This document shows positions 34,930 to 36,936 of a stretch of 64,000 bases of DNA, piece by piece. The DNA lies in contig NZ_KB892279.1 of NCBI RefSeq assembly GCF_000373745.1, forward strand, positions 1-64,000, given 5' to 3'. The position numbers were made by a program, and so were the translations under genes. The DNA comes from Oligella ureolytica DSM 18253 (GTDB lineage Bacteria > Pseudomonadota > Gammaproteobacteria > Burkholderiales > Burkholderiaceae_B). The number at the start of each line of letters is the position of its first letter. Position 1 is the stretch's first letter. The notes beneath the pieces were generated by a model. It saw nothing but the letters and a program-made list of their open reading frames with translations. It was not told the DNA's origin and ran no database searches.

Positions 34930-36936
34930 CTATCCATTAGAGAGAACTTGCACCGAGCCATCAACGACAATCGCACCAAAATTATCTTGCAGACTTTTTA
35001 TATAAGGATCATTGGCCACCAATTCCTCTGCCTGTCTTTGACGCTCTTCTTGCTCCTTAATTAATTGAGCTCGGGCGGTAGCATCCCCTGTTTCGCCCGT
35101 TTTAAAATCCAATTTAACCACTTGAGAAAAATACTCAGTCAATGCGGTCGTTAGGGTTGACTTAACCGACAACTCATCGACATTTCTTAAGAATATTTTC
35201 AGATGCAGAGTATTACCATCGGTCGCTAACCATTGGCTATTTAATAGTAATTCACCAGCTAAGCCCGGCAAATTCAAGCGCTTAGTAAGCTCAATCCAGC
35301 GCTCTTGATTAAGATTTGCCAGACTGATTTTATTATCGCTTTCTGTCGCATGGGGCTCCCAGCCCAACTCAAAGTGACTATCAGATAATGGTGCATCAAT
35401 GATACCGCCATCATAATCACCTACACTACTGTCATATATCCGATCCCAATCGGCGTCAGACATCTCAGAACGCTCAGAGCTAGCAATATTGTGCGGTTCT
35501 TTGTGAGGCTCTGAAAAACGAACAGACTCGGTCGGCACACTCTCGCCATCGATTGCCGGACTCACTGTATTCACTGCCGGAGCAGCAACAACCAGCTCCT
35601 CTTCTTCCACTACTACGTCAGCACTAGCGATCTTCTCAATCGTCTCCGGCTGAGCTTCGTAAACTTCATCAGCGACTTCCTGTCTGTCAGGCTCAGTACC
35701 CGGAGCGGTTGTGTAAGTCCGTGCGGAGAGTTGCTCTGCTTGACTGCTTACGTCTTCTTTAAGGAGTTTTTTTTTATCCTCTTCGTCAGCTATCGGCGCA
35801 TCACTTACAGATGATCCTGGCCGTGGCTGACTCAACTCACCTTGAATCACGGGGGTATTGACCAACGCCAGCATACGCAAGCAAATCATCACAAAACCGG
35901 CATATTCATCCGGAGCGAGTGCTAATTCCTTGCGGCCGTGCACGGCAATCGTGTAAAAGAGCTGCAGCAGATCATGATTAGCGCTCTGCACTACCTGCAT
36001 CATGTCCGGATAAAGTGGATCGTCACTATCCAGCGTGCCCGCCAATCTTTGCTCCATGGCGATACGTGATAGCACGATTGCCAAATCTGCAAGCGCCCCC
36101 TCATAAGAGAAACCGCGCTCAGCAATCGCATCAGCCAAGCTAACCACTTGAGATGCATCACCTGCTAATAAGGCATTAACTAAACGAAGCAAATAGCTTT
36201 GATCGATGGCACCCAACATATCCTGCATCGCTTCAACAGTGATATGGTTACCACTAAACGCTATCGCTTGATCTGTCAGTGATAAAGCATCACGCATTGA
36301 CCCGGCTGCACCACGAGCTATCAACTGTAAGGCTGCGGATTCATACTGTACGCCTTCGTCTGACAATAAATGCTGCAGATGCTCGATGACGGCTTCGGGC
36401 GCCATCTGCTTGAGATTGTATTGAATACAACGCGACAACACAGTGACCGGTATTTTTTGTGGATCGGTTGTCGCTAAAATAAATTTTAAATGTGCCGGCG
36501 GTTCCTCAAGCGTCTTTAACATCGCGTTAAATGCGTGAGTCGTCAGCATATGCACCTCGTCAATCGTATATATCTTAAAACGACCGCGTGATGGCGCATA
36601 AATGGCCTGTTCCAATAGAGGTGTGATTTCATCAACACCACGTCGTGATGCCGCATCAACCTCAATATAATCGACAAAACGCCCCTGATCGATCTCTAAG
36701 CAGGCAGAGCATTGTCCGCAAGGAGCGGCAGTAATACCGGTTTCACAATTAAGCGACTTAGCAAGAATGCGCGCCAAGGTCGTTTTACCAACACCGCGGG
36801 TACCGGTAAATAACCAAGCATGATGGATTCTTTGCGTATCAAGCGCATTAGACAGCGCGCGGACCACATGTTCTTGGCCAACCAATTCCGAAAACTTACG
36901 AGGACGCCACTTACGGGCAAGGGCTAAATAATTCAT
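34930..36936 (-). CDS. dnaX: DNA polymerase III subunits tau (and probably gamma)
   Basis: DnaX is the clamp-loader ATPase that links the replication machinery together. I start it at the ATG at 36936 (MNYLALARKWRPRKFSELVG), giving 668 residues. The frame open to 37065 would translate the 4.5S RNA gene. Walker A is FTGTRGVGKTTLARIL near residue 42, the zinc module CGQCSACLEID lies near residue 75, and the DExx box is in YTIDEVHMLTTHAF. The collar domain ends near residue 370. An acidic linker (about 390-560) leads to the tau-specific C-terminal domain that binds polymerase. A run of nine A at codons 388-390 would allow a shorter gamma form. Confidence 0.97.
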   Translation of the reverse strand: MNYLALARKWRPRKFSELVGQEHVVRALSNALDTQRIHHAWLFTGTRGVGKTTLARILAKSLNCETGITAAPCGQCSACLEIDQGRFVDYIEVDAASRRGVDEITPLLEQAIYAPSRGRFKIYTIDEVHMLTTHAFNAMLKTLEEPPAHLKFILATTDPQKIPVTVLSRCIQYNLKQMAPEAVIEHLQHLLSDEGVQYESAALQLIARGAAGSMRDALSLTDQAIAFSGNHITVEAMQDMLGAIDQSYLLRLVNALLAGDASQVVSLADAIAERGFSYEGALADLAIVLSRIAMEQRLAGTLDSDDPLYPDMMQVVQSANHDLLQLFYTIAVHGRKELALAPDEYAGFVMICLRMLALVNTPVIQGELSQPRPGSSVSDAPIADEEDKKKLLKEDVSSQAEQLSARTYTTAPGTEPDRQEVADEVYEAQPETIEKIASADVVVEEEELVVAAPAVNTVSPAIDGESVPTESVRFSEPHKEPHNIASSERSEMSDADWDRIYDSSVGDYDGGIIDAPLSDSHFELGWEPHATESDNKISLANLNQERWIELTKRLNLPGLAGELLLNSQWLATDGNTLHLKIFLRNVDELSVKSTLTTALTEYFSQVVKLDFKTGETGDATARAQLIKEQEERQRQAEELVANDPYIKSLQDNFGAIVVDGSVQVLSNG
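35759..35775 (-). promoter_or_regulatory. dnaX: A9 slippery run in dnaX with an immediate -1 frame stop
   Basis: On the minus strand codons 388-390 are AAA AAA AAA inside an uninterrupted run of nine A (35775-35767). A slip of -1 reads ACT CCT TAA and stops at 35759, giving a 392-residue protein that ends after the collar domain. The +1 frame also stops, seven codons on. A GAGGA lies just upstream of the run. E. coli (A AAA AAG) and Thermus (A9) make gamma at the equivalent place. Slippage here is inferred. Confidence 0.65.

Follow-up and report, generated by a model that had tools for sequence, protein, structure and literature searches.

A conserved nine-adenine run in dnaX as a candidate site of programmed slippage in Oligella and related genera

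Introduction

Does a run of nine adenines in dnaX of Oligella ureolytica DSM 18253 allow one gene to specify both a long (tau) and a short, gamma-like form of DnaX and, if so, is it RNA polymerase or the ribosome that slips? The portions of PMC5009743 concerned with this subject describe a long controversy over the importance of gamma and state that bacteria differ in how they make it, and a passage of PMC1088944 points out that it is difficult to assess truncating slippage sites comparatively, since no new coding sequence follows them. The run lies in a stretch of 64,000 nucleotides (the window; contig NZ_KB892279.1, positions 1 to 64,000), for which a preliminary description had put forward programmed production of a short form as a good candidate. 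Here we report the comparison of this site with the rest of its genome, its genus, its family and its order.

Results

The dnaX gene and its predicted products

The dnaX gene runs from 36936 to 34930 on the minus strand, and its full frame of 668 aa corresponds to tau. The start ATG at 36936 (MNYLALARKWRP) was picked by eye, and the codons of this gene are numbered from it. The gene belongs to the DnaX (tau/gamma) family, with PF13177, PF22608, PF12169 and PF12170 all above the Pfam cut-offs. It is followed by a ybaB-like and then a recR-like frame, both labelled by eye. The features referred to below are the following:

34930..36936, minus strand: dnaX full frame, tau, 668 aa (open frame and four Pfam domains)
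35848..36243, minus strand: clamp-loader domain III, PF12169, retained in the predicted gamma (Pfam)
35777..35781, minus strand: GAGGA, probably not a stimulator (1 nt from the run; 3 of 7 congeners)
35767..35775, minus strand: A9 run, candidate slippage site, codons 388-390 (kept in 7 of 8 genomes of the genus)
35759..35761, minus strand: TAA of the -1 frame, predicted end of gamma (36936-35759, 392 aa; equidistant stop in all 7 run-bearing congeners)
34966..35331, minus strand: tau domain V, PF12170, residues 534-655 of P0001, absent from the predicted gamma (Pfam, positions converted from residues)

The A9 run was found at 35775-35767 in phase 0, as AAA AAA AAA, at the very codons of dnaX that had been indicated beforehand. 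A -1 shift, or one added A, leads to Thr-Pro and then to the TAA, giving a predicted gamma-like protein of 392 aa; the interval 35759-35775 that had been singled out for a 392-residue short form is exactly the run plus this stop. When one A is removed, a tail of six codons (NSLKKT) precedes the stop, which corrects the seven codons first given for the +1 frame. Both shifted frames thus close near the run, after two and six codons. The AAA+ core, lid and domain III span residues 18-361 of P0001, which begins two residues after the ATG, and the run is located 25 residues C-terminal of the end of PF12169 (residues 230-361 of P0001) and ahead of domain V. The stops fall just behind the clamp-loader core, as had been noted.

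The run is conserved within the genus

Conservation of the run in close relatives, named beforehand as a check, was borne out. The run is kept in seven of the eight genomes carrying the window's genus code, g1 (G000, which holds the window, G002, G003, G004, G005, G006 and G007; the G003 contig has just the later part of dnaX and was read separately), and its length is exactly nine in all seven. Brackiella (G001), which has the same genus code, carries only A6 at the equivalent place (GAT CTA AAA AAC); the A9 is missing from its dnaX, and no replacement was found. AAG interruptions, named beforehand as counter-evidence, occur in none of the seven run-bearing genomes, and the loss in Brackiella is the one departure.

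The surroundings of the run change freely. When the seven g1 genes were aligned without gaps and anchored on the run, mean pairwise identity in 30-nt blocks was 0.33, 0.33 and 0.45 upstream and 0.45, 0.30 and 0.36 downstream, as compared to 1.0 in the run itself. In codons 1-340, the six full g1 dnaX genes differed at 51-64% of four-fold sites in every one of their 15 pairwise comparisons. Lysine codons inside the run are all AAA in the seven congeners, whereas among nine lysines conserved outside it across the six full genes none is AAA throughout, three are all AAG and six are mixed. The -1 stop begins 5 nt past the run in all seven genes, as TAA, TGA, TAA, TGA, TAA, TGA and TAG, at a site where the 0-frame residues are K, D, N, E, K, D and S; the background rate of -1 stops in the six full g1 linkers is 0.08-0.165 per codon. 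Retention of the run amid such flanks strongly suggests that a short and a long protein would be made from one gene.

Other A9 and T9 runs of the same genome

An A9 exclusive to dnaX was considered and rejected, as the 2.67 Mb genome (G000) contains 18 distinct A9 runs (19 pattern matches, since one run is A10). At least six of them, besides that of dnaX, sit well within open frames of at least 150 aa with no sign of use. A9 is thus scarce yet not confined to dnaX, so that its lone occurrence is weak proof, and it is conservation that supplies the proof. Two of the other in-frame A9/T9 runs were compared in relatives as controls. One symporter-like gene has a T9 that is interrupted in all six readable congeners even though the protein stretch is similar, and the A9 of a TRAP-transporter-like gene corresponds to GAG AAG AAG in the sole close orthologue (both genes labelled by eye). 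A further T9 was observed at L190 (G000:C12:3816-3824), on the coding strand directly upstream of a flagellin-like start, also identified by eye.

Survey of dnaX in the family and order

We read 146 dnaX genes, of which the window's family contributed 119 and further families in the order 27; in the former, 262 of 268 searched genomes match dnaX, and the 119 come from these 262. Runs of at least nine A were found in 36 of the 146 genes, all within codons 346-530, with none in codons 1-345 and none past 530; T9 was absent from all 146. Synonymous codon resampling of the linker, with the protein held fixed, gave an expectation of 7.4 genes with A9 as compared to the 36 observed. By group code, the runs are distributed as g55 (10), g1 (6), g23 (6), g56 (4), f12 (4), g8 (4), g15 (1) and f7 (1). 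The four g8 runs (A9/A10), from tiny AT-rich genomes with GC3 of 0.10-0.23, were taken as an effect of composition; they are counted among the 36 and were kept outside the stop test described below. Runs also occur in GC-rich dnaX outside the window's family (A9/A10 at GC3 0.78-0.84, in L130 of G042, f7, and in f12), with a prompt shifted-frame stop; in f12 these are A10 runs in four closely related genes (L222-L225; GC3 0.81-0.84). The remaining 110 genes have no A9 in codons 346-530, which indicates that gamma production by A-run slippage is not required family-wide and counts as a point against the slippage reading.

Seven genes counted in the 146 (L025, L036, L076, L095, L103, L227 and L229) extend beyond the end of their stretch and were scored as run-less, so that some may hide a run. 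Outside the 146 are G048 (unparsed), G300 (A10 visible, frame unparsed) and G293 (cut by a contig end), and A10 is also present in L226, whose frame was not parsed. In GC-rich family members, an A7 recurs in RKKT- or RKKS-like contexts at about codons 508-631 (L044, L048, L083, L091, L096 and L098); it has no stop inside two codons and is probably a protein-level feature. Several dnaX matches end about 200 nt or less from a contig start (G229:C6, G223:C7, G156:C7, G079:C16, G099:C8, G153:C330 and G148:C179), as if the linker were a frequent assembly break point in GC-rich members.

Shifted-frame stops and codon phase

A stop within two codons in a shifted frame was present in all 31 single-frame run-bearing genes, which cover seven group codes; the two role-reversed genes described below were left out of this test and one A8 gene was added. 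At other linker positions the mean null for such a prompt stop is 0.28, with 0.48 in g1 and 0.05 in f12 as the extremes. Both shifted frames are shut within eight codons in 25 of the 31 genes (null mean 0.15). Since run-bearing genes are related, these counts are non-independent trials. Four of the g55 genes that carry A9 have no stop in the +1 frame for 17-74 codons, and some slips there would not yield a neat gamma, which is a further point against slippage.

The direction of the prompt stop and the phase of the run both vary. For g56, f12 and a single g23 gene it is the +1 frame that holds the prompt stop; six g55 A10 genes have one in each shifted frame, and the remaining run-bearing genes have it in the -1 frame. 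The run is in phase 0 in g1, G029 and G245 and in phase 1 in the rest of the clade defined below, as well as in g15, g56, f7 and f12; the residues that it encodes vary with phase (KKK, EKK or QKK).

Gamma and tau exchange roles in two genomes

In G029 (L062) and G245 (L061), the 0 frame encodes gamma and stops 8 and 6 codons on from the beginning of an A9 run (376 and 383 aa in script numbering). Tau would require the -1 frame: a run with one A more, or two fewer, opens the tau tail, 139 codons that align to the window's tau domain V. Comparison of the two tails gave mismatch rates of 0.29 at first, 0.23 at second and 0.59 at third codon positions and an amino-acid identity of 55%, a pattern indicating that the 139-codon tail evolves as coding sequence. 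Both arrangements, with tau or with gamma in frame, were found under genus code g23.

History of the run

In a quick maximum-likelihood tree calculated from residues 1-358 of 51 genes and rooted on g56, g1, g23 and g55 form one clade of 24 genes (SH-aLRT 100). An A8-A10 run is present in 23 of the 24 clade genes, in differing codon phases and positions, the exception being Brackiella. A FastTree of all 146 genes, with g8 scored as run-less, required 8 state changes versus about 31 in shuffles. The simplest reading of these sequences would be a single gain at the base of the clade followed by one loss; the long branches of g8 and g15 are unsure.

Signals for ribosomal frameshifting

E. coli dnaX carries AGGGAG 10 nt ahead of A AAA AAG. 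The GAGGA upstream of the window's run had been offered as a clue to programmed slippage; the motif is indeed there, and a stimulatory role finds no support. We rejected it as a Shine-Dalgarno stimulator since it occurs in just three of the seven congeners and is wrongly spaced, at 1 nt from the run instead of 10 nt. Among the 33 run-bearing genes, eight have a Shine-Dalgarno-like tetramer within 25 nt upstream, two of them (L046 and L224) at an E. coli-like distance. The heptamer at the window's run is A_AAA_AAA followed by C, and not the A_AAA_AAG of E. coli.

RNAalifold found no consensus base pair downstream of the run in the seven g1 congeners. The fold energy is -7.8 kcal/mol for the window and -19.7 kcal/mol for the known E. 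coli stem, and single folds of the congeners gave -6.5 to -10.3 kcal/mol for five of them, -12.7 kcal/mol for G004 and -18.5 kcal/mol for G006. The z-score of the downstream 55 nt is below -2 in four of the 33 run-bearing genes (G006, G246, G130 and G105). This score fails to flag the E. coli stem (-0.40 and 0.03), so that it is a weak test of stimulator absence. In G006, a 60-nt stretch (L011:2683-2742; -18.5 kcal/mol, z -3.59) folds into two hairpins, one immediately behind the run and the stronger one 29 nt past it, which are not common to the congeners. A single tRNA-Lys (UUU) was identified when 30 of the 36 tRNA matches were scanned, and E. coli likewise has one; with this, ribosomal slippage on A_AAA_AAA would be possible.

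Discussion

We consider it likely that the A9 run is a programmed slippage site through which one gene would give two DnaX proteins, mostly by slipping of RNA polymerase. On the template run, RNA polymerase would slip to produce mRNAs with varying numbers of A. Those with nine (or 9+3n) A's would be translated into tau, while those with ten would stop after two codons, and those with eight or eleven within six, to give the gamma-like protein. The latter would end about 28 residues past clamp-loader domain III and lack the polymerase-binding domain V. A programmed short form of gamma size, as initially proposed, appears strongly supported by the run in 23 of 24 clade genes, the fixed-distance -1 stop written with three different stop codons, the prompt stops beside runs in the other phase, and the two genomes with reversed roles. 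That slippage occurs at all, that RNA polymerase rather than the ribosome slips, how often it does so, and that the clamp loader makes use of gamma are points that we infer from these sequences. Points that speak against slippage also include the unused-looking A9 runs of other genes, Brackiella without a run, and the high stop null of the AT-rich genera.

The same two products could arise by -1 ribosomal frameshifting of the E. coli type on A_AAA_AAA, with little transcriptional slippage. The fixed place of the -1 stop in all seven g1 genes would suit such a mechanism, as would the heptamer contained in the run in both phases, the one tRNA-Lys, and the stable downstream structure of four genes in 33. 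Yet the congeners share no structure, an upstream motif at an E. coli-like distance is confined to L046 and L224, no gene uses AAG in its run, and the prompt stops of g56, f12 and one g23 gene lie in the +1 frame; mixed stop direction serves as a criterion for transcriptional realignment in the relevant part of PMC3711429. Passages of PMC5009743 and PMC1088944 indicate that nine-A runs slip efficiently in bacterial transcription, and an excerpt of PMC3711429 reports that a magnesium-chelatase cassette with nine A's showed 40% frameshifting in E. coli. Variable codon phase and stop direction, together with the lack of a consensus RNA structure and of a conserved Shine-Dalgarno motif, thus favor the transcriptional route, and we regard a mainly ribosomal one as unlikely.

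Less likely still is that the run reflects chance or a lysine-rich linker needed at the protein level, with the short product being noise. A9 does occur in other genes of the genome, and AT-rich linkers often give prompt stops, in nearly half of the null positions in g1; however, the control runs are not retained in relatives, the encoded residues change with codon phase, the run's lysines are uniformly AAA where conserved lysines elsewhere are mixed or all AAG, the run is also present at GC3 0.78-0.84, and roles are reversed in two genomes. Homopolymers of this length mutate, and the tract measures 8, 9 or 10 across genomes, as would be seen if DNA-level indels from replication slippage toggled tau in a phase-variable manner. 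The constant nine A's of the seven congeners argue against this, a replication gene would be an improbable target, and we set phase variation of the dnaX tract aside as very unlikely indeed. Slippage mostly by RNA polymerase remains the reading that we prefer.

A broader proposal, for which we see roughly even chances, is that in this Alcaligenaceae-like clade selection acts on the homopolymer itself. An ancestral RNA-polymerase slippage tract would have stayed at a length of 8-10 A, even as codon phase, location within the linker, encoded residues and the in-frame role of gamma or tau changed; RNA polymerase, and not a ribosomal signal, would maintain the two-product output, and the tracts of g56, f7 and f12 would be separate gains. 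The tract is kept through heavy silent divergence, recurs in other families and can have either product in frame, which suggests that selection acts on two DnaX forms in these bacteria. Stop conservation and role reversal may offer one way past the comparative limit raised in that passage of PMC1088944, and the clade provides a natural series for asking what sets slippage, which may help with the question of gamma function. In the open-licence literature we found no report of dnaX slippage or frameshifting in Oligella, Taylorella, Bordetella or Alcaligenaceae.

The site can be compared to three known systems. As in the accounts of Thermus thermophilus dnaX, a gene with transcriptional slippage at nine A's, in parts of PMC1088944 and PMC5009743, there are nine sense-strand A's, tau is in the genomic frame, and stops are near in both shifted frames (here within six codons); in contrast to what is described there, the run stands at codon 388 of 668 and not seven-eighths along the gene, and its host is a betaproteobacterium in which slippage at the site is predicted. 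Escherichia coli, with its -1 ribosomal frameshift (gamma annotated in NC_000913.3), uses the same gene, and its gamma, like the one predicted here, terminates after a -1 shift no more than two codons from an A-rich site. E. coli employs A_AAA_AAG, AGGGAG at 10 nt and a stem-loop, whereas the window's dnaX combines A9 with a GAGGA 1 nt away and lacks a shared stem. Genes of the two-ORF type, where a frameshift is needed to make tau, are reported in the pertinent section of PMC3711429 for 17 genes of 12 genera, nine of them with ten A's; G029 and G245 resemble these, on nine A's, whereas the 0 frame of the window continues to 668 aa with tau in frame. Slippage in dnaX, either way round, is thus already known, and the run of g1, g23 and g55 is a well-supported addition to these systems with a clade-wide history.
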